This document shows, piece by piece, positions 1,890 to 41,809 of a stretch of DNA of 56,825 nt (position 1 is its first letter; each line of letters begins with the position of its first letter). Origin of the DNA: Verrucomicrobiota bacterium. Lineage in GTDB: Bacteria; Verrucomicrobiota; Verrucomicrobiae; Limisphaerales; UBA11358. Both the position numbers and the translations under genes were made by a program. The DNA is taken from positions 1-56,825 of the forward strand of contig JACZKP010000035.1 in assembly GCA_014860005.1 (NCBI GenBank), in the 5' to 3' direction. The notes beneath the pieces are model-generated. The model saw only the letters and a program-made list of their open reading frames with translations, was not told the DNA's origin and made no database searches.

Positions 1890-2615
1890 ATGTTTACTCA
1901 GGATTATATTGTGGGCAACGCGACAGAATTGCAGGTGACGGGGCTTCCGGCTTGGAAGCGCCTCCTTGATTTTATCCTTATTCTGGTGTTGGCACCCGGG
2001 CTGCTTTTGCTCGCGAGCATCGTGGCGCTGGTGGTGCTATGCGGTTCGCGCGGCCCGATCTTATTCCGGCAGCAGCGCGTTGGCCACCGCGGGCGCGAGT
2101 TTACCTGTTTCAAGTTCCGCACGATGCATGTTGACGCTGAGACAGATTCGCATCGGGGTCACGCAACGCAATTGATCAAGTCTGAGACTCCGATGACAAA
2201 ACTGGACACCTGTCGCGATCCACGCGTTATCCCGTTTGGCGCGTGCCTGCGCGCCACGGGTCTCGACGAGTTGCCGCAATTGATTAATGTGCTGCGCGGG
2301 GAGATGAGCTTGGTGGGACCCCGACCCTGTATTCCCTACGAATACGCGCTCTATGAGCCATGGCAACGCCGGCGATTCGAGGCCGTTCCTGGTTTGACCG
2401 GACTCTGGCAGGTGAGCGGCAAGAACCGCACGACCTTCAACCAAATGATCCGGTTGGACATTGAGTATTCGGAACGGATGAGCCTCTGGCTTGACTTGGT
2501 CATCATTCTTAGAACTTTGCCCGCCCTCTTGAGGCAGTGCTTGGACACGCGAGCGCTGAAGCGTAAGGAGGCCGCATCCTCGGCGGTGGGCATTGAAAAG
2601 CCGGTCCAAACATAA
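1890..2615 (+). CDS. Initiating sugar-phosphate transferase (bacterial sugar transferase family)
   Basis: A 241-residue small monotopic phosphoglycosyl transferase that would load the first sugar phosphate onto undecaprenyl phosphate at the inner membrane. Visible hallmarks: the N-terminal '[20 protein letters not shown]' re-entrant/membrane segment, then '[20 protein letters not shown]' and 'KFRTM', '[20 protein letters not shown]', and near the end '[15 protein letters not shown]' with a '[14 protein letters not shown]' tail. These match the ExoY/WcaJ catalytic core, without the extra N-terminal transmembrane bundle of WcaJ. It is the first gene of the locus and is followed after 5 nt by the dehydrogenase. 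The sugar specificity cannot be read from sequence. Confidence 0.92.
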
Positions 2616-4367: not shown

Positions 4368-4552
4368 CCCGTATGATACTTGATACAACTACCGACAAGT
4401 TTGGTGCGCGGAACCATGGCAGTACACGAATGGCATTGCTGACCCGGTGGCAGGGCGTTTCACGAGTTCATCTGCGAGCGTTTAGAAATTGAGCCGCAGT
4501 ATGGCAAGCCAAACTTCAGACAGGCGCTTTGAAACAGAACCATACAACCAAC

Positions 4553-6790
4553 ATGAATGCCGGAATCCATTCCGGTGATGGAGGTGAGCCGCTCGCCGCG
4601 GGCGGGTTGGGTGTGGATGATGTCTTCTTTACGCTATTTCGGCACAAGTGGCTCCTTTTGACATTTATGTGCCTGGGTATCGTGGCTGCTGGCGCGGTGC
4701 GTTTTGTCAAGCCACCCCTCTATCAGTCGAAGGCCAAACTTAATGTGCCCTACATTGTTGATACCAAGGCGGTCAACACCGCCAATCCAGAAACCCAAAT
4801 AATCTCTACCGCTTCCGGCGGCCTGGCTGCGATTGAAGCGGAGATTGAGATACTGCGGAGTCTGGATGTGTGTGCATTGGCGGCCGACAGCGTCGGACCC
4901 GAAAATGTATTGGCCAAGAAGGGCGGCGGCAGCGACCGTATGGCTGCGGCGGGCGTCATTGCCTCGGGTCTCCTTGTGGATCCTCCGCGCACCGCGACCA
5001 TCAGCGTTACGTTCCAGCATCCTGACCGGGAGATCGTCCAACTGGTCATGAACGCACTGATCAAGGCCTATGCGTTCAAGCATCGGCAGGTGCATAGTGG
5101 CGAGGGCATTTGGGATGACCATTTTATCGCCCAGCGCGACGACTGGGGTGAAAAGCTGGTCCAGACGGAAGCTGCACTCCGGCAACTCAGAAGCGAGGCC
5201 AAATTGATTTCAATGGATGAAACCAAAACCTCATATCAACTCCAGATCAGCAAGTTGCAGGAAAGGTTGTTTGACGCTACAACGGAACTCGCCGAGCGCA
5301 AAGCTCAGATGGGGGACTTGGACCTGGCGGTGGGTGCGGAGGGCGAGATCACCGCCTCGAACACCAACATTCCAAGCGAAACCCTTGAAGATTACGCCGT
5401 GACGGTAAGCAGGCTGGAGTACCTGACCCGGCATGTGCGCCAGTTGCTGTCTGAAGGAGGATTGAAGGAAGCCCATCGGCAGGTGCAAGCCGCCCGGGCG
5501 GAGATTGGGGAACGCACCGAACACAAAGCCGCGCTCGAGCAGGAATACCCCGCGTTGGCGGTTTATGCCGTTGATTCCGCTGGCGTCACCACCAACAGCG
5601 TCGTATCCACCACGGCGGAACTCAGACGACTCACCACCAGCGTAGCGGTGTTTGGAACACTCCTGAGCAATGTTCAGTTCCAGGCCGCTCAGCTCATGGA
5701 ACTCGAGCCGAAGATCACGGAACTGGAACGGCAGCGGGAACTTCAGGAGGCCAATTTCAAATTCTATTCGGGCCGGCTCGAGCAGGTGCGGTCCGGCGAG
5801 TCCAGTAACGAGGGAAAGATGATCAACCTGTCAGTGATTCAAAGTCCATCGCCGCCCGGCCTCGACAGTAAGAAGTTGCTCAAGTTGACGGGCATGGCGC
5901 TGGCGGGTTGCATCGCCGTGGGATTGGGGTTGGCGTTTTTCATTGACTTGGTCCTCGACCGGACGATCAAACGATCCACGGACGTGAAACGACTACTGCG
6001 CCTGCCGGTCATGCTCACGATTCCCCACACAAACTGGTCGGTCGGGTGGTGGCCGGCCCGCCTGGGGCGCGGTCGCAATGGCAAAGTTCAAAGCTATGAT
6101 CCCAAGTTTAATCAGAACGTGCCGGCGGGCGGGGCGGGAATCGCCCCGTGGAATCCCGTTCATCATTTGCGGCAATACACCGATGGCTTGCGCGAGCGCC
6201 TCATCACTTATTTTGAGGTCAATCAACTGACGCATCGGCCAAAGCTGGTGGCCGTGACCAGTTGCAGCGCGGGTGTGGGCGTCACGACGCTCTCCACCGG
6301 CTTGGCTGCGTCATTATCCATGACTGGCGATGGCAACGTGTTGTTAGTGGATATGAATGCGGGGGAAGGAGTGTCGCATTCGTTCCACAGGGGGAAACCG
6401 GGCTGCGGTCTTTCCGAAATGCCGGAGCCGGAGGATGCCCCGGCGGCCACAGCCTCGAATCATTACCCCGCCTCCGTCCCCGCCGGCGGCAGCGTTCCGG
6501 AGAATCCCTCGAGCGAATTGCCCACGGTTTTCAGCGACGTGATGCCCAAACTTAAAGTGAGCGGCTACGACTACATCGTTTTCGATATGCCGCTGGTCTC
6601 GCAAACCAGTGTGACGCCCCGCATGTCCGGCCACATGGACATGGTGCTGTTGGTGATAGAATCGGAGAAGACGAGGCAACATCTGGCGGTTGAATCAACC
6701 GCTTTGATGCGTGAAGCACAGGCCAAAGTGGCCACCGTTCTCAACAAATGCAAGGCGCATGTGCCTGCCGCCCTCTCGACGGGATTCTGA
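4553..6790 (+). CDS. Wzz/BY-kinase-like polysaccharide chain-length protein with degenerate Walker A
   Basis: About 745 residues. It has an N-terminal Wzz-type segment with one membrane helix after 'LFRHKWLLLTFMCLGIVAAG', a long periplasmic coiled-coil region (about 170-430, many Glu/Gln/Arg heptads), then a second membrane helix ('LTGMALAGCIAVGLGLAFFI') and a cytoplasmic CpsD/Wzc-like ATPase domain. The Walker A equivalent is 'SAGVGVTT' (572-579) with Val577 where the catalytic Lys should be; Walker A-prime 'VLLVDMN' (596-602) is kept, and the C-terminus has no Tyr cluster. The fold therefore looks kept but kinase activity is doubtful. I prefer ATG 4553 over TTG 4529, which would add 8 residues. 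Role: control of polymer length with the Wzy-like protein at 19151. Confidence 0.85.
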   Translation: MNAGIHSGDGGEPLAAGGLGVDDVFFTLFRHKWLLLTFMCLGIVAAGAVRFVKPPLYQSKAKLNVPYIVDTKAVNTANPETQIISTASGGLAAIEAEIEILRSLDVCALAADSVGPENVLAKKGGGSDRMAAAGVIASGLLVDPPRTATISVTFQHPDREIVQLVMNALIKAYAFKHRQVHSGEGIWDDHFIAQRDDWGEKLVQTEAALRQLRSEAKLISMDETKTSYQLQISKLQERLFDATTELAERKAQMGDLDLAVGAEGEITASNTNIPSETLEDYAVTVSRLEYLTRHVRQLLSEGGLKEAHRQVQAARAEIGERTEHKAALEQEYPALAVYAVDSAGVTTNSVVSTTAELRRLTTSVAVFGTLLSNVQFQAAQLMELEPKITELERQRELQEANFKFYSGRLEQVRSGESSNEGKMINLSVIQSPSPPGLDSKKLLKLTGMALAGCIAVGLGLAFFIDLVLDRTIKRSTDVKRLLRLPVMLTIPHTNWSVGWWPARLGRGRNGKVQSYDPKFNQNVPAGGAGIAPWNPVHHLRQYTDGLRERLITYFEVNQLTHRPKLVAVTSCSAGVGVTTLSTGLAASLSMTGDGNVLLVDMNAGEGVSHSFHRGKPGCGLSEMPEPEDAPAATASNHYPASVPAGGSVPENPSSELPTVFSDVMPKLKVSGYDYIVFDMPLVSQTSVTPRMSGHMDMVLLVIESEKTRQHLAVESTALMREAQAKVATVLNKCKAHVPAALSTGF

Positions 6791-9261: not shown

Positions 9262-9272
9262 AAGAACATTGC

Positions 9273-14106: not shown

Positions 14107-14143
14107 GAAACTGAGCAGAGCACGCCGAATTCAAACCAATTGC

Positions 14144-15592: not shown

Positions 15593-15902
15593 GCCTGAGA
15601 AGGCGGCTGGCCGTTCCCAAAAGTGAACACTCGCATTGACGCAGTTAACCAATTCTGGACGCTGATAAACTTGCGGGCCTATGTGCAAGTTGGGGCTGAA
15701 GACAAGGAATTTCCTAGCGTTGGCAGGGAAGCCCCTCTTTGCAGTCCCACAAGGCAAAGGCCAGATTTCCAGCATGCTAAAACAATTACCAGGAATGGAA
15801 TGGAGGAGGACGCCCCACCCGGCTACCCGCTTGGTGGAGGCCCAAACCGGTCGGTCTGCCGACCGGTTGAAAACATGGCGTAGTTCTTGCATCCGGCAAG
15901 GC
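15593..15902. other. Spacer with one strong inverted repeat
   Basis: This 310-nt spacer precedes the secreted beta-helix protein. A plus frame is open from 15681 into that gene, but the codons before 15903 show no domain and would hide the signal peptide, so I treat them as noncoding. The only structure I see is the inverted repeat at 15845-15868. Confidence 0.5.
15845..15868. promoter_or_regulatory. Perfect 10-bp hairpin in the 5' leader
   Basis: AACCGGTCGG-TCTG-CCGACCGGTT is a perfect 10-bp inverted repeat with a 4-nt loop, ending 34 nt before the start codon at 15903. No T-tract follows on either strand, so it is not a normal intrinsic terminator. It could be an operator dyad or an RNA hairpin in the leader of the secreted protein; which one is unknown. 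Confidence 0.5.
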
Positions 15903-19150: not shown

Positions 19151-20473
19151 GTGAGCCCCATTTTTCTCATATTATGTTTGGTCCTTCTGGTCGCCCAACT
19201 CAAGCTTCCTCGACCGTATGCCTTTGCGCCTCTGCTAGTGGCCGCCTGTCATTTCCAGAATGTACCGGTAGTAGAAATTGGCGGCGCGCTAACCATCACC
19301 AAGCTGGTAATCCTGGTAGGACTGTTTCGTGCAGTGCGAGAGCAGAGCCTGGCTTGGTCCTCACAGAAGCGATTGGACCTGTGGGTGGCCATCTGGGCCG
19401 GCGTGATGATCTTTAGTGGATTCCTGCACGATCCCAAAGATCACAATCCCATCACGATCCGTTTGTCTCAGGTTCACAATGTGCTTGGAGCTTATCTTTA
19501 CGCGCGCGCGTTCCTCAGGAGCCAGGACGATATTCTACGGTTCTGCAAGTGCCTCGCCGTCGTTTTGCTGCCCCTGGCGTTGATGGTGGCGGTGGAAAAG
19601 GCTACCACTTGGAATCTCTATCAGACGATTGGCGGCGGGACAGAAGGCTCGCAGATCCGGGAAGGCCAGGTGCGAGCTACCGGTCCTTTTAGCCACCCGA
19701 TATTGCTGGGGACATTCGCCGCGACCTCGCTCCCGCTCGTTGCGATATTGTACCGGCAACATCGTCGCTGGGCCATCGCCGGGGCCGCTGGTTGCGTAAT
19801 GGTGGTCTTTTGTTCGGCCTCGAGCGGTCCGATCATGACGTTGCTTTCAGGTTTGCTGGCGCTTGGCTTTTGGCGGTTTCGGGAAAGTGTGGGCTGGATC
19901 CGGAGGCTGGCTATTTGTGTAATCATTGTGCTGCACGTGGTGATGCAAGCGCCGGTCTGGTACCTGTTGGCGCGCGTCAATGTTGTCGGGGGGAGCACCG
20001 GCTGGCACCGGGCAGAATTGATCCAGAAAGCCGTGGATCACATCGGAGACTGGTGGCTTATCGGTACTGACTACACGCGCCACTGGTTCCCCTATGGGGT
20101 GGGGTGGAGCGAGTATCACACCGACATCACGAATCATTATCTGCACATGGGCGTGACGGGTGGTCTGCCGCTAATGCTGTGCTTCATCATGATATTGGTC
20201 AAGGCCTTCCAGTTGTTGGGATGGCGAATCCGCCTGATGAGGAGAGCAAGGGACGTGAGCGAATTCAACTTGTGGTGCGCAGGAGCGGCGCTCTTCGCTC
20301 ACTGCGTCACTTTCTTTTCGATTTCCTATTTCGACCAGAGTACCGTCACATTTTCCTTGCTGCTGGGACTGGTGCCGGGTTTGTGCGCCGCCAAGTTGAA
20401 TAGCGCGGCTGCACGAGATACCACATCGACTGGACCAAGTCTCCCAAGCAGCTCAAATGCCACCTCGGTTTGA
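19151..20473 (+). CDS. O-antigen polymerase/ligase-like membrane protein (Wzy/WaaL type)
   Basis: 440 residues, GTG start, with about ten hydrophobic segments, beginning 'FLILCLVLLVAQL' and including 'IAGAAGCVMVVFCSASSGPI', 'RLAICVIIVLHVVMQAPVWY' and 'TFSLLLGLVPGLCAAKL'. A large hydrophilic periplasmic loop lies between the last helices (about 270-325: 'STGWHRAELIQKAVDHI...', 'YHTDITNHYLHMGVTGGLPL'), the pattern of the O-antigen ligase/polymerase superfamily. With a Wzx-like flippase downstream, a Wzy-like polymerase is the likely role: joining lipid-linked repeat units at the periplasmic face. Ligase activity cannot be excluded from sequence. Confidence 0.8.
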   Translation: MSPIFLILCLVLLVAQLKLPRPYAFAPLLVAACHFQNVPVVEIGGALTITKLVILVGLFRAVREQSLAWSSQKRLDLWVAIWAGVMIFSGFLHDPKDHNPITIRLSQVHNVLGAYLYARAFLRSQDDILRFCKCLAVVLLPLALMVAVEKATTWNLYQTIGGGTEGSQIREGQVRATGPFSHPILLGTFAATSLPLVAILYRQHRRWAIAGAAGCVMVVFCSASSGPIMTLLSGLLALGFWRFRESVGWIRRLAICVIIVLHVVMQAPVWYLLARVNVVGGSTGWHRAELIQKAVDHIGDWWLIGTDYTRHWFPYGVGWSEYHTDITNHYLHMGVTGGLPLMLCFIMILVKAFQLLGWRIRLMRRARDVSEFNLWCAGAALFAHCVTFFSISYFDQSTVTFSLLLGLVPGLCAAKLNSAAARDTTSTGPSLPSSSNATSV

Positions 20474-27012: not shown

Positions 27013-28596
27013 ATGTCTTCAAGTCCCAGGCAAACCAATATGGCGCTTCCTTCGGTGGAACCGGCTCTGCCGCCAACGAAGTCGGGCCAGAAGGGGAGCA
27101 CCTATGGCCAGATTCTCAAGTCGTCAGCATTGATTGGCGGTTCCTCGGTAGTCAATATCAGCATCGGGATTGTCCGGACCAAGGCAATGGCCCTGCTGTT
27201 GGGAACTGGGGGAGTTGGATTGATGGGACTTTACGGTTCGTTGCTCGAGCTCACCCAGAGTATCGCAGGCATGGGGATCAACAGCAGTGGGGTCCGGCAA
27301 ATTGCTGAAGCCGTCGGCTCGGGCGAAACCCGTCGGATAGCGCGAACCGCCTTCGTCCTGAAACGGACCGCCATTGTGGTTGGGCTTCTGGGGGCGATAT
27401 TACTCATTGCATTCGCCAGGCCTCTGTCTGTCTTGACCTTTGGCAACGATCAGAATACTGCCGCCATTCGCGTACTCTCATTGGCCGTTTTCTTTGCTTC
27501 TGTCGCAGGTGGTCAGGCAGCGCTAATTCAAGGAATGCGGCGCATCTCCGACCTGGCCAAGATGGGAGTGCTGGGCGCGCTGTTCGGCGCGGGGATCAGC
27601 ATTTGCTTGATCTACTTCTTCCGGGAAGAGGGCATCGTTCCCTCCCTTGTAGGCATTGCCGCAATGGCGATCCTGACTTCGTGGTGGTTCAGTCGCAAGG
27701 TGAGAATTGAGGCCCACCCATTAATGCTGCACGAGGTGAGGCAGGAAGCCAGTGCCCTGTTGAAGCTCGGCTTTGCATTTATGGCCAGTGGGGTGCTAAC
27801 CACAGGGGCCGCCTACTTAATCCGCCTTATTGTTCTCCGCAAAATCAGTCTTGAGGCTGCCGGATTGTACCAATCTGCCTGGGCTATCGGGGGATTGTAT
27901 GTCGGGCTGATTTTGCAGGCCATGGGCGCCGATTTTTACCCGCGGTTGACCGCGGTAGCCAAAGACAACGCTGAGTGCAATCGTTTGGTCAACGAGCAAG
28001 CCCAGATCAGTTTGTTGCTGGCCAGCCCTGGGGTTATCGGCACCCTGACCTTTGCGCCTTTGGTCATCGCGATCTTCTACACGACCAAGTTTGTTCCGGC
28101 AGTTGAGATTCTGCGCTGGATTTGTCTCGGAATGGCCTTGCGGGTCATTGCCTGGCCCATGGGTTACATTGTGCTGGCCAAAGGCGTACAAAAGATTTTC
28201 TTCTGGACCGAGGTTGCCGCCACCATTGTTCACGTGGCGCTGGCTTGGTTGTTCATTGAAAACTTCGGCCTCGCAGGTGCCGGCATGGCATTCTTTGGAC
28301 TATACGTTTGGCATGGATTTCTAATCTACTTTATCGTTCGCCGCCTCAGCGGATTCCATTGGTCAGTGGCAAATCGAAAGCTCGGTTTACTAACCTTGAC
28401 GCTTGTCGGTTTGGTGTTTTGCGGAATTGTTTTCCTCCCTTTCTGGCTTGCGACCACGATTGGGTTTTTGGCGGCGGTAGGGAGTGGCATTTACTCCGTC
28501 CGACACCTGCTCAAACTCGTCCCCATTGAGCGGTTTCCGTCTCCTGTGCGCCGGTTGCTGACGTTATTTCGTTTTGTAACTCAAGATTCCCGGTAA
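27013..28596 (+). CDS. O-antigen translocase / flippase (Wzx, WzxE-like)
   Basis: 527 residues with about 12-14 hydrophobic helices. The N-terminal block 'SSALIGGSSVVNISIGIVRT' followed by 'KAMALLLGTGGVGLMGLY' is the characteristic start of WzxE-type MOP-superfamily flippases, and 'AAGLYQSAWAIGGLYVGLIL' with 'MGADFYPRLTAVAKDN' is the repeated second-half motif. Expected role: flipping lipid-linked repeat units to the periplasm for the polymerase at 19151. Start ATG 27013; ATG 27040 is an alternative. The next gene begins 19 nt after its stop, pointing to cotranscription. Confidence 0.9.
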   Translation: MSSSPRQTNMALPSVEPALPPTKSGQKGSTYGQILKSSALIGGSSVVNISIGIVRTKAMALLLGTGGVGLMGLYGSLLELTQSIAGMGINSSGVRQIAEAVGSGETRRIARTAFVLKRTAIVVGLLGAILLIAFARPLSVLTFGNDQNTAAIRVLSLAVFFASVAGGQAALIQGMRRISDLAKMGVLGALFGAGISICLIYFFREEGIVPSLVGIAAMAILTSWWFSRKVRIEAHPLMLHEVRQEASALLKLGFAFMASGVLTTGAAYLIRLIVLRKISLEAAGLYQSAWAIGGLYVGLILQAMGADFYPRLTAVAKDNAECNRLVNEQAQISLLLASPGVIGTLTFAPLVIAIFYTTKFVPAVEILRWICLGMALRVIAWPMGYIVLAKGVQKIFFWTEVAATIVHVALAWLFIENFGLAGAGMAFFGLYVWHGFLIYFIVRRLSGFHWSVANRKLGLLTLTLVGLVFCGIVFLPFWLATTIGFLAAVGSGIYSVRHLLKLVPIERFPSPVRRLLTLFRFVTQDSR

Positions 28597-28615: not shown

Positions 28616-29338
28616 ATGACTACCAGATCTGCCAATAATTCTCGTCTCGCTCCTTCCGTCCACGGCAAGCAGCAAATGACGCCAGACCCTTCCTTCGAGC
28701 TGGCTTTGTCAAAGCATCTGCGGGCGAGTTACCCACCAGCAGCCCTGCTTGAACATTATTCCCGATTCGCGGAGGGAGACGGCGAGTTGGATAGTCTCAT
28801 GCGCCGTGCCATCTGGCGGGCGGTTGCCCGGGATTTCGGCAATCGGGTGCGGATTGGTAGCGGTGTCGGGTTCAAACATCTCGAAACCTTCGAGATTGGT
28901 GACGGTGTATTCATCGGAGCGCACGCTTACATTCAAGGTCGTTTCGACGGCACCACGAAAATCGGCAACCACGTCTGGATTGGGCCGCAGGCTTATTTCG
29001 ATGCCCGCGATCTCGTGTTGGAGGATTACGTGGGGTGGGGGCCCGGCGCCAAGGTGCTGGGTTCCGCCCACACCGGGCTGCCCGTTGACCGACCCATTAT
29101 TGAAACCGATTTGGAAATCAAACCGGTGCGTGTCGAGGCGTGGGCCGATGTGGGCACCAATGCCACGGTCCTGCCCGGCGTCACCATCGGCAAAGGCAGC
29201 ATCGTGGGAGCGGGGGCGGTGGTAACACGGGATGTTCCACCCTTCGCCATCGTGGCTGGGGTGCCGGCGAAATTCCTGCGCTGGCGGGATGGATACAAAC
29301 CGAAAAACCAAAAGGGTAATAGCCAAAAAAGAAAGTAG
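28616..29338 (+). CDS. Hexapeptide-repeat O/N-acyltransferase
   Basis: 240 residues. An N-terminal helical part (to about 75) is followed by left-handed beta-helix coils ('VRIGSGVGFKHLETFEIGDG', 'VFIGAHAYIQGRFDGTTKIG', 'GNHVWIGPQAYFDA') and the closing 'VGAGAVVTRDVPPFAIVAGV'. 'LGSAHTGLPVDRPIIETDLE' carries the His expected in the active-site loop of maltose/galactoside acetyltransferase relatives. It probably acetylates a sugar of the repeat unit. It is separated from the following epimerase by one base, so the two are coupled. The C-terminus is basic and low complexity. Confidence 0.85.
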   Translation: MTTRSANNSRLAPSVHGKQQMTPDPSFELALSKHLRASYPPAALLEHYSRFAEGDGELDSLMRRAIWRAVARDFGNRVRIGSGVGFKHLETFEIGDGVFIGAHAYIQGRFDGTTKIGNHVWIGPQAYFDARDLVLEDYVGWGPGAKVLGSAHTGLPVDRPIIETDLEIKPVRVEAWADVGTNATVLPGVTIGKGSIVGAGAVVTRDVPPFAIVAGVPAKFLRWRDGYKPKNQKGNSQKRK

Positions 29339-29339
29339 T

Positions 29340-30374
29340 ATGAAACATAAACGAGCATTGATTACGGGCGGGGCGGGATTGATTGGATCTCACATCGCCG
29401 ACCAACTTGTCTTGGAGGGAATTCAAGAGATTGTCGTACTGGACAATTTGACCCGTGGTCGCCGGCAGAATCTTGAATCCGCTATTGCCTCCGGCAAGGT
29501 GAGGATTGTGGAAGGCGACATCCGGGACCCGAAGGTGGTCGCACAGGCTATGGAGGGCGTTGACATCGTTTTTCACGAGGCGGCGATTCGCATCACGCAT
29601 TGTGCCGAGAATCCACGGCTGGCGCATGATGTTTTGGCAACAGGCACATTCAATCTCATCGAGGCAGCAACAGCGGCCAAGGTGAAGCGGTTTGTCACGG
29701 CATCATCCGCTTCCATTTATGGGCAGGCCGAGGAATTTCCCACTCACGAAAACCATCACGGTTACGGGAACCGGACGATTTACGGTGCAACGAAAATGTA
29801 CAGCGAAGGGTTGCTGCGCAGTTTCTACGAGATGCAGGGATTAAACTATGTCGCGCTCCGTTACTTCAACGTCTATGGTCCGCGGATGGATGCGTTCGGC
29901 GTTTACACCGAAGTGATGATTCGCTGGATGGAGCGGCTCGCGAAAGGCCTGCCGTGTTTGATTCTTGGTGATGGCGGTCAGACGATGGATTTCATCTTCG
30001 TGGAGGACGTGGCCCGAGCCAACCTCATGGCTGCCAATTCCTCCCTTACCGACGAGGTTCTCAACATTGCCAGCGGCACGGAAACCAGCCTTAACGAATT
30101 GGCCGAGACGTTGGGTCGGGTCATGGGAGTGGAACTTGCTCCGGAGTACGGGCCGGCGCGCAAGGCCACGCCGGTGTGGAGAAGGCTGGCGGACGTGCGA
30201 CAGGCGGAGCGCCAGATCGGATTCAAGGCGAGGGTATCGCTTGAAGAAGGACTGCGTCGGCTCGTGCAGTGGTGGTCGCGCGAGACGAAAACACCGGTGC
30301 CGGGTTTGGTCACCGGCAAATCCACCGTGTGTTTTGAGCCGAAAGAGCTTCAAGCTGGCAAAATGACCCGATAA
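29340..30374 (+). CDS. NAD-dependent epimerase/dehydratase (SDR, UDP-sugar 4-epimerase-like)
   Basis: 344 residues. The true start is ATG 29340, one base after the previous stop, preceded by AGAAAG; an upstream frame from 29232 overlaps the acyltransferase. 'RALITGGAGLIGSHIADQLV' is the GxxGxxG NAD site, 'VVLDNLTRG' follows it, and the catalytic YxxxK is 'YGATK' (Tyr148, Lys152) after 'TASSASIYGQ'. 'YFNVYGPRMDAFGVYTEVMI' is the substrate side. It likely supplies an epimerised or dehydrated sugar nucleotide to the locus. Residues 270-324 have a decayed copy at 35547-35714. The exact substrate is unknown. Confidence 0.9.
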   Translation: MKHKRALITGGAGLIGSHIADQLVLEGIQEIVVLDNLTRGRRQNLESAIASGKVRIVEGDIRDPKVVAQAMEGVDIVFHEAAIRITHCAENPRLAHDVLATGTFNLIEAATAAKVKRFVTASSASIYGQAEEFPTHENHHGYGNRTIYGATKMYSEGLLRSFYEMQGLNYVALRYFNVYGPRMDAFGVYTEVMIRWMERLAKGLPCLILGDGGQTMDFIFVEDVARANLMAANSSLTDEVLNIASGTETSLNELAETLGRVMGVELAPEYGPARKATPVWRRLADVRQAERQIGFKARVSLEEGLRRLVQWWSRETKTPVPGLVTGKSTVCFEPKELQAGKMTR

Positions 30375-30737: not shown

Positions 30738-33700
30738 ATGTCGTTCAGCAGTTGCATAATTGGAGAGGGAACACTGCCCGTCCAGTGCGCGGAGATTTTG
30801 CTCCGGCGCGGCCACAGGATCAGGGGGATCATTTCACCCGATGCGGCCTGCATCCGCTGGGCGCAGGAGCGCAACATTCCCCACGCCGACACCAGACAAG
30901 ACCTCGTGGCCTTCCTCCGCGCGCAACCCTTCGATCTCCTCTTCAGCATCGTCAACCAGACGATTCTGCCCGGCGAAGTGCTGGCCCTGCCGCGCCAGGC
31001 CGCCATCAATTATCACGACGGCCCGCTGCCGCGCTATGCGGGCACGTATGCCACGTCCTGGGCATTGATGAATCGAGAGAGGATGCACGGCATCACTTGG
31101 CATCGGATCGTGGAGGAGGTGGACGCGGGCGAAGTGCTGAAACAGCGGCTGGTGGAGATCACCGAAGGCGAGACGGCCGTGACGCTCAATGTGAAATGCT
31201 ACGAGGCGGCGATAGCGGCGTTTGGCGAACTGGTGGAGGAACTGGAGGAAGGGCGGGCCGTCGGGCGGCCGCAGGATCTGTCCGAACGCACGTACAATGC
31301 GCGGCATCAACGACCCGCCAGTGCGGGTGTGATTTCATGGAAGCGAAGCGCTGAAGAGATCAGCGCGCTGGTGAGAGCGCTGGACTTTGGGCCGTATGAG
31401 AATGCCTTGGGCCTGGCGAAGGTGAAGGTGGGTGAAGCGTACTGGCTGGTGCGAGAGATGACGGTGACGGACACCCCATCCACGGCCACGCCCGGAACGA
31501 TGATCAGTCTCGCTGCCGGCGGCATCCGCGTTTCGACGGGGTCGCGGGACGTGGTGTTGAGGCGGGTGCAGAGCATGGAGGGCGCAGAAGAGCCGCTGGA
31601 ACAACTCATCAACCAGCACGGACTTCAAGTGGGCGCAGTACTGCCCGAATTGAGCGCCGAGGCGGCGGAACGATTGACGGCGTTGAACGGTGAGATCTGC
31701 AAACAGGAGCGTTACTGGGTAAAGCGGCTTGCGGGGTTGGAGGCGCTGCCAGTGCCCTACGGCAGCGGGGGCGTGCGGCAGACGGACAAGTCGGGCGGAG
31801 TCGGCAGTGTTGCGGTGCGGGTGCCGGAGTCGTGGCAACGAATCGGGGTCGGGGAGAATGTGGGCGGCAAGCGTGGCCACCTTTTGCTCGCTGCTTTCGG
31901 AGCGTTTCTGTCGCGCGTGGGTGGCATGGTTGAATTTGACATTGGCTGCAGTTCCACAGAGTTGCGCAACGAAACGACCGGCTTCCACGGTTTGTTCGCG
32001 CAGTGCGTGCCGTTGCATTTCGCCGTGGATGGATCGCAGCCGCTGGATTTGCTGTGGAGCGAACTCAAAGACCGGCTGGAGGCGCTCCATCGGCGCAAGA
32101 CTTTCGTGGCTGATGTCTGGGCGCGATTTCCTTCATTGCGCGCGAGCGCCGCGCGTTCGGCGCGGGGCGCGTTGCCGGTGGCGGTGGAGTTTGTGGAATC
32201 ACTGGAACGCCCGGGCGCGATCGCAGACGCCGCGCTGACACTCCGCATCGCGGAGGCTGGTGAGCCATGTCAATTGGAATTCAACCCGGCGCTCGTGGAT
32301 GAATCAACGGTGCGGCGCATCGCGGCTCACTTCGAAATTTTCCTTTCCGGTATCGCGGCCAATCCGACGATGCCCGTCGGCGACCTGCCGTTGCTCACCG
32401 AGGCCGAACGCCGGACGGTGCTGGGGGAATGGAATCAAACGGAGTCGCCGTTCCCAGCCGACGAGACGATTCATGCCTGTTTCGCCGGGCAATTGGAGCG
32501 GACTCCGGACGCTCCGGCGGTGACGTTTCGCAATCAAACCTGGACGTTCCGCCAACTGGACGCGCGCGCCGGGGAGATCGCCGGACGTCTTCGCGCGGCG
32601 GGCGCGCGGCGTGAAACCATCGTGGCTCTTTGCGTCGAACGCTCACTCGACATGGTGGCGGGTATTCTTGGCATTTTGAAAGCTGACGCGGGCTATCTGC
32701 CGCTTGATCCGGCGTATCCCGCCGGGCGCATTGCGGACATGGTCGAGGATGCCAAGCCCGTTGCGGTTCTTGCGAGCGGGAGCGCCGCCGCCGGGTTGGC
32801 CGAGATCAAATCGCCAATCATTCACGTTGCGGAATGTGGCCGCGAAACCTCCCCCACCGGTTTAACGATGCCGGAAGGGAGCGCGCCCGCCGCCGACGCC
32901 AGTTCACTTGCCTACGTCATTTACACATCCGGTTCGACTGGCAAGCCCAAGGGCGTGATGGTTGAGCACCGGAACGCGATGAATTTCTTCACGGCGCTGG
33001 ACCGGCTGTTCAGCTCGGAGCGGGGTGTGGTGCTGGGGGTGACGAGCGTTTCGTTTGACCCGTCCGTTCACGAGATATTGTGGTCGTTGACCCGGGGCTA
33101 CCACCTGGTGCTCTGGCCCGGCGTGGCAGGCGACGACGACGCGACCATCCCGGCGCTGATTCGCGAGCACCGTGTCACGCTGATGCTCGGGGTTCCGTCA
33201 CTTTACCGGATGATTCTCGGAATGTCTGGCGGACGGGATGCGTTGGCTTCCGTGCGGCATCTGGTTGTTGGCGGCGAGGCTTTGACCGGTGCATTGCTGG
33301 CGTCACTGGGCGATCCCGTGGCGCGCCGGATGGTCAATATGTATGGCCCCACGGAAACCACCGTGGCCGCCACCGCATGGAGGGGCGATCCCTCCGCCCC
33401 AACCATTCCCATCGGGCGTCCCCTTGCAAACACGCGCCTCTATGTCCTCGACCGCCGCCTCCAGCCCGTGCCGCCCGGGGTTGCGGGCGAATTGTTCATC
33501 GGCGGCGCGGGCGTGGCGCGCGGTTACTTGAACCGCCCCAAACTCACGCAGGAACGATTTGTCCCCAATCCCTTTAACGGCGCAATCCACGACCGCCTTT
33601 ATCGCACCGGCGATCTCGTCCGTTGGCGGCAGGATGGAATTCTCGATTACCTCGGTCGCGCCGACGACCAGGTGAAGATTCGAGGCCATCGCGTGGAACT

Positions 33701-35435
33701 CGGCGAAGTGGAGGCCAGACTTTGCAAGCATCCTGGTGTTCACGCCGGGGTGACTGACGTGCAGAGGGACAAGAGTGGAGAAAACCGTCTGGTGGCTTAT
33801 GTCGTGACGGGAACTGAAAACTTGCCGACGACGAAGGAATTCCGCGAATGGATGAGTTGTGAACTGCCCGCCTACATGGTGCCGGCAGCGTTCGTGAAAT
33901 TGGACGCATTGCCGCGCACCGCGAACGGGAAGCTCGATCGGCGGGCCCTACCGCCACCTGAAACCGTCCGTGCCCCGGCCCCGCTCAGGAGCCGGACCTT
34001 GACACCAATTGAAGCGGGCCTGTCTGAAATCTGGTGCGAAACCCTGGGTGTTGAACGCGTAGGTCTGGAGGAGACTTTCTTTGAAATTGGTGGTAATTCA
34101 CTCATGGCGGTTAACTTGATGCTGGCCATAGAGGAACGCCACGGCATGAGGCTTCCGCTGGAGGTGGTGCTGGAGGCGCCGACGGTGGCTCTTTTGGCCA
34201 GGAAGCTGGAGGAACTCACCGGTGGGCCTCGTCCCGCAGCGCCCGAAGTTTTCACTCCCGGCCCGGGACGTTATGTTGCCCCGCGGACTGCGACAGAACG
34301 CCGCCTACACGCAATCTGGGAGCGTTTGTTGAAAGCCCGTCCGCTCGGCATCCGGGACAGCTTTATCGAACTCCAGGAACATTCCACCATCTTGGATCAG
34401 ATGCTGATCGAAACCAAACGGGAGTTTGGCGGGAGGGCGGAGGGATTTCCCCTCGATGCCTTCAGTGAAGAGCCCACGATCGAAGCTCTCGCTCGAAACA
34501 TTGATGCCAATATCGAGCCCGCCGCGTCGCTGGTCATCTGCCTCCAACCTCACGGGTCCAAACCGGCGCTGTTCCTGATTCATGACGGTGGGGGCAATGT
34601 CTTTTTCTATCGCATATTGGCGGCCCGGCTGGGAACGGATCGTCCGATATATGGCATCCGCGCGGAATCGAACGCGGATGGCTTTCCATGCTACCGAGCC
34701 CACAGCGTGGAGGGAGTGGCGGCCCGCTACATTGCCGAAATCAAGCTCGCGCAGCCGCGCGGGCCTTATGCGCTCGGCGGCTATTGCCTGGGCGGTGTCA
34801 TCGCTTTTGAAATGGCGCGGCAGCTTCGGTTGCAAGGCGATGAGGTCAGCGATCCCGTGCTGCTTTTCGACGCCTATATGCAGAACAATCCCCACCTGCG
34901 CACGGAAGAGGGAGTTCCGATTCTGCAGCGCGCGGGACTCCTGCCGCCGGACACCCGTTGGACGGCTCTGCGTCGTCACCTCAGCAACCAACTCAAACGT
35001 GCGTCGCAGCTTGGGCTGATGAACATGGCCTGGCAGGTCGCGGGCAAAATCCTGCGCGAGGCTCCATCAAAAGCCGTTGTTGTCATCCGAGCGCTGACCC
35101 GCAGTCTGCGTGTTCTTCCCGCCCGACTGGCGGGCAAGTTTGGACCGAAAGCCGCCGCCACCCCAAGAACATTGGATGCCGTCGAGAGGATCCGACGGCG
35201 TTTAGTGGAAGAGTTCCAGCCGGCATCCGGTCATCTCCTGGCGAAGTATGTGCCAGATGTCTATCCAGGCAGCCTGGTCCTGTTCAAAGCCAAAGACACC
35301 GCCGATCTCGAGCGCTTGTGGACCGGCCTAGCACAGGTTGGCATGGTTGTGCATGAGATACCCGGTGGCCATCTCGACATGTTGGAAGAACCGGCAGTCA
35401 TCACCACGGCGGCGCTGGTTCAAGGGCATTTATAG
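30738..35435 (+). CDS. Formyltransferase / NRPS-like megaenzyme (F-half C-A-T-degenerate T-TE)
   Basis: 1565 residues in one frame. Residues 1-310 form a methionyl-tRNA/sugar formyltransferase-type domain with the Asn91-x-His93 ('NYHDGPLPRYAG') and Asp129 catalytic set. 318-550: only the second half of a condensation domain; the HHxxxDG half is absent. About 575-1075: an adenylation domain with 'AYVIYTSGSTGKPKG' and catalytic Lys1065 ('TANGKLDRR'). A carrier protein follows with phosphopantetheine Ser1121 ('FFEIGGNSL'), then a second carrier-like domain with 'ELQEHSTIL' (Ser1216, GG replaced by QE), and a C-terminal type I thioesterase with 'GYCLGG' (Cys1350), Asp1378 and His1545. F-A-T starts are known from gramicidin and anabaenopeptilide synthetases. 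Here the neighbours are all polysaccharide genes, so attachment of an (N-formyl) aminoacyl group to an amino sugar is inferred. Confidence 0.9.
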   Translation: MSFSSCIIGEGTLPVQCAEILLRRGHRIRGIISPDAACIRWAQERNIPHADTRQDLVAFLRAQPFDLLFSIVNQTILPGEVLALPRQAAINYHDGPLPRYAGTYATSWALMNRERMHGITWHRIVEEVDAGEVLKQRLVEITEGETAVTLNVKCYEAAIAAFGELVEELEEGRAVGRPQDLSERTYNARHQRPASAGVISWKRSAEEISALVRALDFGPYENALGLAKVKVGEAYWLVREMTVTDTPSTATPGTMISLAAGGIRVSTGSRDVVLRRVQSMEGAEEPLEQLINQHGLQVGAVLPELSAEAAERLTALNGEICKQERYWVKRLAGLEALPVPYGSGGVRQTDKSGGVGSVAVRVPESWQRIGVGENVGGKRGHLLLAAFGAFLSRVGGMVEFDIGCSSTELRNETTGFHGLFAQCVPLHFAVDGSQPLDLLWSELKDRLEALHRRKTFVADVWARFPSLRASAARSARGALPVAVEFVESLERPGAIADAALTLRIAEAGEPCQLEFNPALVDESTVRRIAAHFEIFLSGIAANPTMPVGDLPLLTEAERRTVLGEWNQTESPFPADETIHACFAGQLERTPDAPAVTFRNQTWTFRQLDARAGEIAGRLRAAGARRETIVALCVERSLDMVAGILGILKADAGYLPLDPAYPAGRIADMVEDAKPVAVLASGSAAAGLAEIKSPIIHVAECGRETSPTGLTMPEGSAPAADASSLAYVIYTSGSTGKPKGVMVEHRNAMNFFTALDRLFSSERGVVLGVTSVSFDPSVHEILWSLTRGYHLVLWPGVAGDDDATIPALIREHRVTLMLGVPSLYRMILGMSGGRDALASVRHLVVGGEALTGALLASLGDPVARRMVNMYGPTETTVAATAWRGDPSAPTIPIGRPLANTRLYVLDRRLQPVPPGVAGELFIGGAGVARGYLNRPKLTQERFVPNPFNGAIHDRLYRTGDLVRWRQDGILDYLGRADDQVKIRGHRVELGEVEARLCKHPGVHAGVTDVQRDKSGENRLVAYVVTGTENLPTTKEFREWMSCELPAYMVPAAFVKLDALPRTANGKLDRRALPPPETVRAPAPLRSRTLTPIEAGLSEIWCETLGVERVGLEETFFEIGGNSLMAVNLMLAIEERHGMRLPLEVVLEAPTVALLARKLEELTGGPRPAAPEVFTPGPGRYVAPRTATERRLHAIWERLLKARPLGIRDSFIELQEHSTILDQMLIETKREFGGRAEGFPLDAFSEEPTIEALARNIDANIEPAASLVICLQPHGSKPALFLIHDGGGNVFFYRILAARLGTDRPIYGIRAESNADGFPCYRAHSVEGVAARYIAEIKLAQPRGPYALGGYCLGGVIAFEMARQLRLQGDEVSDPVLLFDAYMQNNPHLRTEEGVPILQRAGLLPPDTRWTALRRHLSNQLKRASQLGLMNMAWQVAGKILREAPSKAVVVIRALTRSLRVLPARLAGKFGPKAAATPRTLDAVERIRRRLVEEFQPASGHLLAKYVPDVYPGSLVLFKAKDTADLERLWTGLAQVGMVVHEIPGGHLDMLEEPAVITTAALVQGHL

Positions 35436-35802
35436 CCCGACTCCCGACTCGCTCGCGTGCCAGTCCGTCGCCGTGGGATGCACGGCATGGAAGCCGTCCC
35501 AGTGTGATCGCCATGCTGCCGGGCAATTCCATTTCGTCAGTCAGGTTCCGATCCGGCGCGCAAAGCCAAGCCCGTTGGGCAGAGGCTGGTGGACGTGAGC
35601 CGGGCCGAGCCCCGGATCGGTTTCAAAACCCAAGTTTCACGCGCAGGCGGATTGCGTCGACTCGCGCGGTTGTGGTCCAAGGGGGCGAACATTCCGGACC
35701 CGGGTTGGCGGTGAACGGGAACATGGCAATCAACAGCTAACCCAAGTTGGTTTCTGGCAGCTTTATCACGGTTGAAATTCAAACCATGCAAACACGATTA
35801 CT
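35436..35802. other. Spacer containing an epimerase relic
   Basis: This spacer lies between the megaenzyme and the DegT aminotransferase. Its middle (35547-35714) is a decayed epimerase C-terminus, listed separately. The first 110 nt may be further remnant but I could not align it; the last 88 nt before ATG 35803 show no clear signal. Confidence 0.5.
35547..35714 (+). pseudogene. Relic of an NAD-dependent epimerase C-terminus
   Basis: Translated in the frame of codon 35547 this gives 55 codons and a TGA stop. It aligns without gaps to residues 270-324 of the intact epimerase at 29340: 'DPARKAKPVGQRL' against 'GPARKATPVWRRL', 'IGFKTQVS' against 'IGFKARVS', and 'GGLRRLARLWS' against 'EGLRRLVQWWS'. 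By eye about 29 of 55 positions are identical. No start codon, NAD-binding fold or active site remains upstream, so it is the tail of a second, diverged epimerase gene that has been lost. It lies 88 nt before the aminotransferase gene. Confidence 0.8.
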
Positions 35803-36972
35803 ATGATTCCAATTGCGAAACCTTTCCTGGGCGAGCCGGAGGCCGAGGCCGTCCGCCGCGTGATTCTTTCTGGCTGGATTACGCAGGGTCCTGAAGTGGC
35901 CGCGTTTGAACGTGAGTTCGCCAATTGTGTCGGGTCGCCGCACGCCTGTGCGGTCTCCAATTGCACCACGGCTTTGCACCTGGCGTTGCTGGCTGCTGGC
36001 GTCGGCCCCGGCGATGAAGTTATTACGGTCAGCCATTCGTATATCGCCACCGCGAACAGCGTGCGCTACTGCGGTGCGATACCTGTCTTTGTGGACATCA
36101 GTGCCGATACGTTCAATATCAAACCCGATCTTGTTGAGGCGGCGATTAGTCCGAAAACCAGGGCGATTCTATGCGTGCATCAAATTGGAATGCCGTGTGA
36201 CCTCGGACGGCTCGTCCGCATAGCTGAAAAACAATCCATGCCTCTGATTGAGGATGCCGCGTGTGCGATTGGCAGCGAGATCCTTTGGAACGGTAATTGG
36301 GAACGTATCGGCAAACCACACGGAGATGTGGCGTGTTTCTCCTTTCATCCCCGGAAGGTCCTGTCCACCGGTGATGGTGGGATGATCACCACGAAACACA
36401 AGGATTGGGACGCGAAGTTTCGCTTGTGGCGGCAGCACAGCATGTCGGTGCCGGACACCGTGCGCCACGGCTCGAACAAGGTGATTTTCGAGAGTTATCC
36501 GGAGATCGGTTTCAACTACCGGATGACGGATGTCCAAGCAGCCATTGGGCGAGAACAATTGAAGCGCCTTCCCGAGTTGGTAGCTCGTCGCCGGGAGTTG
36601 GCTGCCCGGTATCGTTCGCTGCTCGCTGGCACTTCGAATCTGGTTCTCCCGTCAGAACCGGAATGGGCGCGGAGCAACTGGCAGAGTTTCAGTGTTCGGT
36701 TGTCGGATTCCTCACTTCAGGTGCCGGTGATGCAGGCTCTGCTGGATCAGGGAATCGCCAGCCGCCGCGGAATCATGTGTGCTCATCGGGAGCCGGCCTA
36801 TCAAAAAGATTCTTGGCGATCTGCCGGACCACTTACCGAAAGCGAGCTTGCGCAGGATGAGTGCATACTCCTTCCGCTTTTTCATCAGTTAACGGTCGAA
36901 AACCAGCAGTTCGTGGTGTCCCAGCTTCAAGCGGTTCTCACGGCTGAGTCCAGTTTGGAACCCTCAAAGTGA
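35803..36972 (+). CDS. DegT/DnrJ/EryC1 aminotransferase (sugar-nucleotide type)
   Basis: 389 residues. It starts 'MIPIAKPFLGEPEAEAVRRV', has 'GWITQGPEVAAFEREFA' and 'CAVSNCTTALHLALLAAGVG' for PLP binding, 'PLIEDAACAIGSE' with the Asp that contacts the PLP ring, and the Schiff-base Lys185 in 'CFSFHPRKVLSTGDGG'. Known chemistry: transamination of a 3- or 4-keto UDP/dTDP-sugar using glutamate. It would fit between the dehydrogenase (2621) and acetyltransferase (3764) to make a 3-acetamido sugar, or make the amine that the formyltransferase domain upstream could use. The gene follows the epimerase relic and ends the biosynthetic part of the window. Confidence 0.92.
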   Translation: MIPIAKPFLGEPEAEAVRRVILSGWITQGPEVAAFEREFANCVGSPHACAVSNCTTALHLALLAAGVGPGDEVITVSHSYIATANSVRYCGAIPVFVDISADTFNIKPDLVEAAISPKTRAILCVHQIGMPCDLGRLVRIAEKQSMPLIEDAACAIGSEILWNGNWERIGKPHGDVACFSFHPRKVLSTGDGGMITTKHKDWDAKFRLWRQHSMSVPDTVRHGSNKVIFESYPEIGFNYRMTDVQAAIGREQLKRLPELVARRRELAARYRSLLAGTSNLVLPSEPEWARSNWQSFSVRLSDSSLQVPVMQALLDQGIASRRGIMCAHREPAYQKDSWRSAGPLTESELAQDECILLPLFHQLTVENQQFVVSQLQAVLTAESSLEPSK

Positions 36973-37303
36973 GTGAGGATTGTCCCAGCGTGCTTGCGAT
37001 TTGTTTTAGAGCAATAAGTGCAGACCGGTCTGGTCAGTGAGAGTTTGGTGTCAACGCGCGATATGAATGTTGACGCAAGCCGTTGCGAAGCTTCGCTAAG
37101 CTGAGCGAAGACTCGGCTACTTCCGTAAAGAACGTCTCCGCGAGTTGGGCGATGTGGGGTAAACACCCCATATCGCCCTAATGACTTTCTGGCACAATTA
37201 CTTGTCCCGGATGTGACTCCGGATTATCGTAAAACCGAATTAAACCAACAGAGCCGGCTGCTGCTTGCCGAGGTGCCGAATTTCGGATCCGGCCATATTA
37301 TTT
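36973..37303. other. 331-nt intergenic region with several hairpins
   Basis: No gene. It contains the 12-nt palindrome GCGAAGCTTCGC (37085-37096), an overlapping 7-bp stem CTTCGCT/AGCGAAG (37091-37110), and the larger hairpin at 37147-37178. It separates the polysaccharide genes from the giant secreted proteins, so a transcript boundary here is plausible. Confidence 0.5.
37147..37178 (+). terminator. Strong hairpin, possible terminator or attenuator
   Basis: The two arms, GGGCGATGTGGGGT and ACCCCATATCGCCC, pair over 14 bp with one G-U and an AAAC loop. A short TTT occurs 7 nt after the stem, not a proper T-tract, so termination would be weak or factor-assisted. Its position, 174 nt after the aminotransferase stop and about 125 nt before the next start, fits a boundary between two transcripts. 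Confidence 0.45.
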
Positions 37304-41377: not shown

Positions 41378-41809
41378 ACACTCCTTGGTTGGATGCTGCG
41401 ACAAGTCAGGAGACCGCTGATGACAGGGTGGTGATATCAACGGTTGGCGGTTCTGGAGCCGTTACCACTTCAACTGCTGTAGCCCCTGAGTTTAAAGCGT
41501 CTGATTCCATCATCGCTGTGGGGGTTACTGCGGATACCCCGTCCGTATTCTCCGTCGCTTGTTTGATAAACCTCCCTGTTGGATACTCTTACAACGATGT
41601 ACGTGATTTGAACTTGGGTACAGTCTCCCGAGTGTTTGGGGCCAGTCTATCGCGGGTGAATGTGTGTTTTTTGAATGAATGGATTGAATCGGCGACGGTT
41701 TGCTATTTGTATGAAAGGTAGTTCTTCTGGAGAAATAACTCGCGGGTATCGGTATTGGTCGGAGTTGTTCATACCGGTGTCAGGGCTTCGTGCGCTTAAT
41801 CCTCCGGCA
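41378..41809. other. 432-nt region upstream of the PHP fusion gene
   Basis: No separate gene is supported. A TTG-started frame of 110 codons (41389-41721) has a beta-rich composition but no homology I recognise. ATGs at 41675 and 41711 are in frame with the giant gene but would add 33-45 residues in front of its signal peptide. The segment is more AT-rich than its neighbours, as expected for a promoter region. Confidence 0.4.

Follow-up and report, generated by a model that had tools for sequence, protein, structure and literature searches.

Nonribosomal peptide synthetases (NRPS) and polyketide synthases (PKS) are usually regarded as makers of small molecules. AB3403 of Acinetobacter baumannii (PDB 4zxh/4zxi) is, as we understand it, a one-module enzyme of four domains, namely, a condensation domain (C), an adenylation domain (A), a carrier (T), and a thioesterase (TE), and linear gramicidin synthetase LgrA presumably lacks a half condensation domain before its first A domain and feeds further modules. 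Adenylate-forming enzymes also serve cell-surface polymers or polysaccharide loci, as do DltA and the exosortase-associated acyl-CoA ligases, which stand alone without a formylation domain (F) or a TE. The A domain of the MupA/Atu3671 family has a pocket that we take to be glycine-like. A literature search of titles and abstract openings, with few subscription journals among them, returned no description of an F-bearing synthetase of the kind discussed here in a polysaccharide locus. Among characterized thioesterases, that of Pks13 hands its acyl product to polyols, with trehalose preferred (PMC9210659). According to PMC11298585 and PMC6668435, the TEs of SulM and ObiF1, which use cysteine, close beta-lactam and beta-lactone rings, respectively, and in ObiF1 a cysteine-bound thioester reacts better with a hydroxyl than does a serine ester (PMC6668435).

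The window analyzed here is a stretch of 56,825 nucleotides from a bacterium of the Verrucomicrobiota. It contains a single intact open reading frame (ORF) that starts with ATG and encodes 1,565 amino acids. This ORF is a true gene, with whole-length homology far beyond chance; among the best 120 of 720 homologs, P0002 (55% identical) and P0015 (45%) match it from end to end. The domains follow one another in the order F, half condensation domain (half C), A, T, a carrier-like domain that we call the pseudo-carrier, and TE, as listed here.

30738..35435, + strand: whole synthetase, F-halfC-A-T-pseudoT-TE, 1,565 amino acids (ORF list, Pfam, domain assignment)
30738..31637, + strand: F domain, residues 1-300, with N91 (31008), H93 (31014), and D129 (31122) kept (Pfam, alignment)
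31662..32417, + strand: half condensation domain, residues 309-560, without HHxxxDG (Pfam, PDB alignment)
32487..33953, + strand: A domain, residues 584-1072 (Pfam)
33993..34217, + strand: active carrier T, residues 1086-1160, GGNS, Ser1121 (34098) (Pfam, alignment)
34278..34523, + strand: pseudo-carrier, residues 1181-1262, motif QEHS (alignment, model)
34554..35432, + strand: TE, residues 1273-1565, with Cys1350 as nucleophile (34785), Asp1378, and His1545 (Pfam, alignment, model)

The original prediction, made from the sequence of this stretch, had described a plain F-A-T-TE enzyme. Those four domains stand, with Formyl_trans_N/C, AMP-binding and its C-terminal part, a single PP-binding, and Thioesterase all above the Pfam gathering scores, but the half C and the pseudo-carrier had been missed, and together they rule out the plain order. 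The full Asn-His-Asp set claimed for the F domain was borne out: Asn91, His93, and Asp129, which we take to be the catalytic trio, are invariant in 13 of 13 aligned proteins. In the condensation region, Pfam covers model positions 391 to 454 only. The corresponding match in the relative P0002 spans positions 192 to 456 of 456, and PDB chains with condensation domains align to the synthetase from their residue ~184 to 216 onward. These partial matches indicate that the synthetase holds the C-terminal lobe alone, and no HHxxxDG motif was found before its A domain. The pocket letters of the A domain, read at positions that we assume to be the appropriate ones, are DPHLVGMVAK, a code common only to P0132 among those compared. 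The related code DILQ.GM.WK, presumably glycine-like, does not fit the window synthetase.

The pseudo-carrier resembles a carrier and has no GGxS motif, yet it holds a serine (QEHS); it is 84% identical to that of P0121, above the values for T (69%) and TE (70%). The nucleophile of the TE is a cysteine (GYCLGG). In a model of residues 1161-1565 (mean pLDDT of 78), a small bundle of helices precedes an alpha/beta hydrolase, whose helical lid is long and modeled at low confidence. The best fold match of this model is AB3403, followed by EntF, a bifunctional TE, and SulM, with Pks13 appearing from rank 10. P0002, the closest full-length homolog, extends further at its C terminus; these additional residues (~1614-1848) include a hydrophobic stretch, lack a Pfam match, and could be a fused domain or an artifact of gene calling.

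The synthetase is found within a polysaccharide locus. An initiating transferase, a Wzz/kinase, glycosyltransferases, and a Wzy-like protein are followed by five glycosyltransferase-like genes (one weak), Wzx, a hexapeptide transferase, and an epimerase; the synthetase comes next, with a DegT aminotransferase after it, and all of these genes lie on the + strand. The principal neighbors are as follows.

1890..2615, + strand: initiating sugar-phosphate transferase, Bac_transf (Pfam, NCBIfam)
4529..6790, + strand: Wzz chain-length determinant with a kinase-like end (Pfam, NCBIfam)
19151..20473, + strand: Wzy/O-antigen ligase-like protein (Pfam, below gathering score)
27013..28596, + strand: Wzx-type flippase, Polysacc_synt_3 (Pfam, NCBIfam)
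28616..29338, + strand: hexapeptide-repeat acyltransferase (Pfam, NCBIfam)
29337..30374, + strand: NAD-dependent sugar epimerase/dehydratase, GalE/LegB-like (below NCBIfam cutoffs)
35803..36972, + strand: DegT sugar aminotransferase (Pfam, PDB match)

The flippase, glycosyltransferases, epimerase, and aminotransferase named in the original prediction were all recovered, and the combination of an initiating transferase, Wzz/kinase, Wzy (below its gathering score), Wzx, and several glycosyltransferases is that of a Wzx/Wzy locus. No match was obtained with one Wza query or for Wza in the 28 window ORFs scanned with Pfam; the Wza gene may lie outside the window. The solved chain closest to the DegT protein is perosamine synthetase, with ArnB near it and a PseC-like match below the NCBIfam cutoff, and this closeness makes a sugar 4-aminotransferase the likely identity. 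The absence of any other NRPS module nearby was likewise upheld: when 595 stop-to-stop ORFs of at least 50 amino acids were queried for F, half C, A, T, TE, monooxygenase, PKS, and phosphopantetheinyl transferase (PPTase), the synthetase was the sole match, leaving no second NRPS, PKS, or PPTase in the window. Neither a regulator nor a drug-type exporter was detected among the 28 ORFs scanned with Pfam. Elsewhere in the locus, at positions 9084-15592, lie genes for a DUF362 protein and a pair of asparagine-synthase-like proteins, the second of which is a weak match; they resemble exosortase-associated amidotransferases below the respective NCBIfam cutoffs. Bacterial Ig-like, LamG, MBG, or DUF4082 domains occur in three large proteins encoded at 15681-18776, 37265-41377, and 41675-51724, the last two with a similar C-terminal stretch (GRIYRLQFK and GRTYRLQFK).

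A search with residues 1165-1565 returned 565 proteins, the best 120 of which were examined by domain assignment. T, pseudo-carrier, and TE occurred in consecutive order in 40 of these best 120 of 565, the window included; because members were chosen by tail likeness and the other 80 were dropped, the order reflects selection, which does not apply to the residue counts. The pantetheine serine of the first carrier was present in all 40. At the same position of the pseudo-carrier, serine was found in 11 of 40, proline in 9, arginine in 8, alanine in 5, and other states in the remaining seven, although the domain is otherwise well conserved. An active tandem carrier is therefore an unlikely reading of the second carrier, even though the window copy has a serine. 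The TE nucleophile was cysteine in 38 of the 40 (serine in P0140; lost in P0154, whose end is broken or truncated), with the aspartate kept in 38/40 and the histidine in 37/40, the other three being gaps. For comparison, the TE motif had serine in 27, cysteine in 5, and no recognizable form in 11 of 43 F-bearing single modules; the counts for the 80 dropped hits were 49, 23, and 8. The window follows the tail family pattern, with an active T (GGxS), a carrier-like domain, and a Cys-TE in order. In P0124, P0127, and P0128, two PP-binding stretches were each scored by Pfam.

The heads that precede this tail vary. C-A heads are represented by, e.g., P0124; F-halfC-A heads occur in P0001, P0002, P0015, and P0154, and P0133 and P0139 begin with a weak F-like stretch; longer NRPS heads are found in P0123, P0136, and P0141; and PKS heads (KS-AT-KR) are found in P0127, P0129, and P0151. 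Records that start in A or end early (e.g., P0121, P0131, and P0154) may be truncated. The variety of heads on a kept tail is consistent with a single, constant transfer step that receives different acyl groups. P0136 and P0140, which are different T-pseudoT-TE synthetases, come from the same source with a longest contig of 76,904 bases in both cases; a single genome may hold several such enzymes.

A quick tree of A domains comprised 64 rows, of which 33 came from tail proteins whose A domain was long and 31 were selected for comparison; two rows were very long. In this tree the window A domain grouped with C-headed P0124, P0125, and P0132 (SH-aLRT of 98; 60 to 62% identity), and the four F-headed rows fell in three places, namely, P0001, P0002 plus P0154 (with P0121, which starts in A), and P0015. 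Labeling the F heads required four label changes with headless P0121 counted as not F, and F heads appear to have arisen in about three places in the tail family. Segment by segment, the F domain and half C of the window are nearest to F-bearing proteins, the A domain to C-headed P0125 and P0124, and the tail to P0121, P0130, P0154, and P0002. The half C of the window finds no match in P0124. On the basis of these differing nearest relatives, the F-halfC unit seems to take the place of a C domain in one piece. The F-domain tree was poorly resolved, and loss of an inserted monooxygenase in the window line gave an AU p of 0.137 (A trees without the tail family).

The original prediction considered an aminoacylated exopolysaccharide system the most novel candidate of the window. 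As a single-protein F-halfC-A-T-TE, the enzyme is not new: this order is common, occurring in 39 of 149 scanned proteins (the best 120 of 720 homologs, 25 from genome loci, and 4 from plasmids). A pseudo-carrier label was assigned in P0001, P0002, P0015, and P0085 among the 149, in P0085 on its only carrier. The synthetase is a true and unusual enzyme, a one-module NRPS with a T-pseudoT-Cys-TE tail. A whole-protein search of genome contigs returned three loci, with matches that did not cover F or TE, and a search of viral contigs returned two weak loci. Three homologs listed among the best 120 of 720 (P0009, P0014, and P0098) carry PilZ (PF07238), a c-di-GMP-binding domain.

In genome draws, a strong match to F-halfC was found in 14 of 398 Pseudomonadota, 11 of 369 Gammaproteobacteria, and 9 of 385 genomes of the class of genome G030, some of them common. 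Thirteen genomes from the Pseudomonadota draw and one from the G030-class draw encode F-halfC-A with a luciferase-like monooxygenase in A and a nearby PKS. Kinship with named plasmid cassettes makes it likely that these 14 genomes are Alphaproteobacteria. A glycosyltransferase gene of the GT2 type adjoins the cassette in 9 of 14, and a PPTase gene is present in 9 of 14. Polysaccharide markers (Wzx, Wzy, initiating transferase, Wza, Wzc, and WecG) were searched with queries from the window and two plasmid loci, which may miss distant types. At least two kinds of marker were found in 12 of the 14 cassette stretches (48 to 60 kb) and at least one in the central 20 kb of 9 of 14, compared to none in the controls, for which 20 stretches, each of 20 kb, were taken from 12 of the cassette genomes. 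Markers were also absent from 12 other F-bearing loci (one with two glycosyltransferases; seven spanning only 5 to 20 kb) and, with a smaller marker set, from three loci of genome G202; F-halfC matches in G506, G521, G699, and G958 lie outside these locus counts. Related cassettes lie by polysaccharide genes in 12 of 14 Pseudomonadota genomes, and the other F-NRPS loci do not (0/12). The original prediction had named homologs clustered with other NRPS modules instead of sugar genes as evidence against it, and part of the family does speak against it in this way; the cassettes themselves pair with a PKS.

Eight annotated plasmid loci encoding a protein with the PGAP name MupA/Atu3671 were read, with three further stretches without annotation left out. 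Six of the eight are surrounded by glycosyltransferase genes; of these six, four also have a flippase and five an initiating sugar transferase, and the match covered F in four; the other two were not among glycosyltransferase genes. No polysaccharide genes were annotated on the Calothrix, Nostoc, and Aliiroseovarius plasmids or beside the enzymes of Legionella lytica and Bradyrhizobium elkanii. This F-halfC-A module type is thus a component of polysaccharide loci in other bacteria, where both its partner and the release domain differ. A tail search of the 398 Pseudomonadota gave a match in 35 genomes, 8 of them at the cassette PKS (Ser-TE). The cassette of a PKS and F-halfC-A(monooxygenase)-T recurs by polysaccharide genes at loci L030-L042, L049, L050, L066-L094, L127-L129, and L131, and that of Ruegeria conchae lies near the exosortase gene xrtD and rfbABCD; titles and abstract openings searched contained no report of this Pseudomonadota cassette. 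For the tail family, one link to the locus concerns P0239, a DegT protein 85% identical to that of the window. P0239 and P0124 share a source code, with two contigs each and a longest contig of 42,305 bases in both, where about 0.07 to 0.2 exact coincidences were expected by chance; the P0239 DegT and the P0124 synthetase are probably on the same contig.

Within the window, the synthetase gene shows signs of separate arrival. It is separated from its neighbors by 363 and 367 bases, in which promoter- and terminator-like sites were not above shuffled sequence. Its GC content is 0.624; the remaining enzyme genes between and including those for the initiating transferase and DegT have 0.533 to 0.586, and the large Ig-repeat genes have 0.593 to 0.603. 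The gap between the synthetase and DegT holds the following remnant, and none was found in the gap upstream.

35553..35705, + strand: second epimerase, present as a remnant that aligns with residues 273-323 of the intact epimerase, which has 345 residues (57% identity; DNA 71%)

The position of this remnant indicates that the synthetase gene was probably inserted into the locus. An intact epimerase gene before it and a remnant after it suggest that the synthetase arrived with, or by recombination at, an epimerase gene. The simplest history would be an epimerase-DegT pair split by a piece carrying an epimerase and the synthetase, or recombination at the epimerase. An insert with raised GC and an epimerase remnant need not serve this polymer.

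That a one-module enzyme of this anatomy would make a single N-formyl-aminoacyl unit, as originally proposed, is well supported by its domains. We tentatively prefer, while stopping short of calling it probable, the reading in which it is a self-contained N-formyl-aminoacyl synthetase and transferase that passes this acyl group to a sugar of the locus. The A domain would activate one amino acid and load the first carrier, since both domains appear intact, and F, with its active site kept, would formylate the carrier-bound amino group. The half C would serve only to tie F to A, as the half with the catalytic motif is missing. The thioester would then move to Cys1350, and the Cys-TE, perhaps positioned by the pseudo-carrier, would hand the N-formyl-aminoacyl group to a sugar. 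The acceptor would most likely be a nucleotide- or lipid-linked precursor, acylated at an amino or a hydroxyl group, and may be the amino sugar that the adjacent DegT enzyme makes. In relatives whose heads differ, the same tail would transfer different acyl groups. The sugar acceptor is suggested by the locus, the conservation of the tail, and the Pks13 precedent. Transfer to a sugar is plausible and, as the best single reading, is partly supported: the polysaccharide locus, the Pks13-like tail kept under varied heads, the probable DegT link, and the Pseudomonadota loci speak for it. Against it stand the gaps, raised GC, and epimerase remnant, the lack of a PPTase match in the window, the differences of the Pseudomonadota relatives (monooxygenase in A, PKS partner with Ser-TE, and no pseudo-carrier), and the location of the other F-halfC-A-T-TE enzymes examined away from sugar genes.

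The same gaps, GC content, and remnant point to an insert and so favor a stand-alone maker of a small molecule, in which the TE would hydrolyze the thioester or couple it with a soluble amine. The product would then be an N-formyl amino acid in free form or an amide (a signal, metallophore, or antibiotic), and the location among sugar genes would be accidental. We consider this a real possibility. One-module F-halfC-A-T-TE enzymes are common and their examined noncassette contexts are not near sugar genes, and AB3403, the closest solved enzyme, lies in an operon linked to a lipopeptide-like compound (PMC5376624). However, if the contig match is real, a close relative also has a DegT neighbor, and the scanned ORFs include neither the regulator nor the exporter sought above. 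It is unlikely that the product is instead cyclized to a small ring or passed to a protein, a lipid partner, or a separate carrier. The ring-closing Cys-TEs of SulM and ObiF1 (PMC11298585 and PMC6668435) offer a precedent, and the SulM carrier-TE was among the fold matches, but one amino acid with a formyl-blocked amine would leave few ring closures, and no trans carrier was matched in the window. The F domain itself raises the question of whether a sugar, rather than an amino acid, is formylated, by an ArnA-type sugar N-formyltransferase fused to an aminoacyl synthetase. Its best E values were to ArnA (6e-21; also its best NCBIfam match, below cutoff) and GDP-4-amino-4,6-dideoxymannose formyltransferase (1e-18), closer than to the formylation domain of LgrA (~2e-4). 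Methionyl-tRNA formyltransferase is nearly as close (6e-17), however, so that likeness does not tell the acceptor, and loci free of sugar genes also encode this F-halfC unit joined to NRPS modules; we regard formylation of a sugar by this domain as very improbable.

If the tail does acylate polysaccharide, genes could be used to predict aminoacyl, formyl-aminoacyl, and polyketide substituents of bacterial polymers, and a conserved dead carrier would gain a function to explain. A broader proposal, which we put forward as rather doubtful, is a plug-in decoration system in which NRPS, formylating-NRPS, and PKS heads are exchanged before the fixed T/pseudo-carrier/Cys-TE tail, changing the acyl group of the polymer. 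Were that true, the pseudo-carrier would be obligatory, guiding the acyl chain, the Cys-TE would be an acyltransferase, and assembly-line enzymes would quite generally supply the side groups of polysaccharides, with two arrangements in two phyla.

Set beside the known systems, the window enzyme shares parts with each. Its A domain matches both DltA (TIGR01734; 236 of 560 bits) and the exosortase-associated acyl-CoA ligases (TIGR03098; 203 of 592 bits), far below the cutoffs. LgrA carries F, A, and T in one chain, as does the window, where F with its Asn-His-Asp is followed by A and T, and among PDB chains it matches the F-to-T part best, owing to A and T; the F domains themselves are remote (24 bits). 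The window departs from LgrA in the half C between F and A and in the lack of any other module in the window. The F-halfC unit is as in the MupA/Atu3671 family (Ruegeria, Paracoccus, Parasedimentitalea, Aminobacter, and Shinella), whose A domains form one clade with that of the window, both being beside polysaccharide genes. Unlike the window, however, that family has a luciferase-like monooxygenase in A, a PKS partner with a Ser-TE, and no pseudo-carrier; neither a monooxygenase in A nor a PKS partner was found in the window. AB3403 is the best solved match of the tail in both sequence and fold, and it is likewise a single module with a Cys TE nucleophile (PMC11298585), whereas its C head and one carrier without a pseudo-carrier (four domains; PMC5376624) differ from the F-halfC and pseudo-carrier of the window. 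The best NCBIfam match of the carrier-TE region is Pks13, at 79 bits versus a cutoff of 2,100 bits. Pks13 has a serine nucleophile and a polyketide head, in contrast to the cysteine nucleophile and F-halfC-A head of the window; the window TE might work like this sugar-acylating enzyme, as a possible parallel and not as a member of its family.
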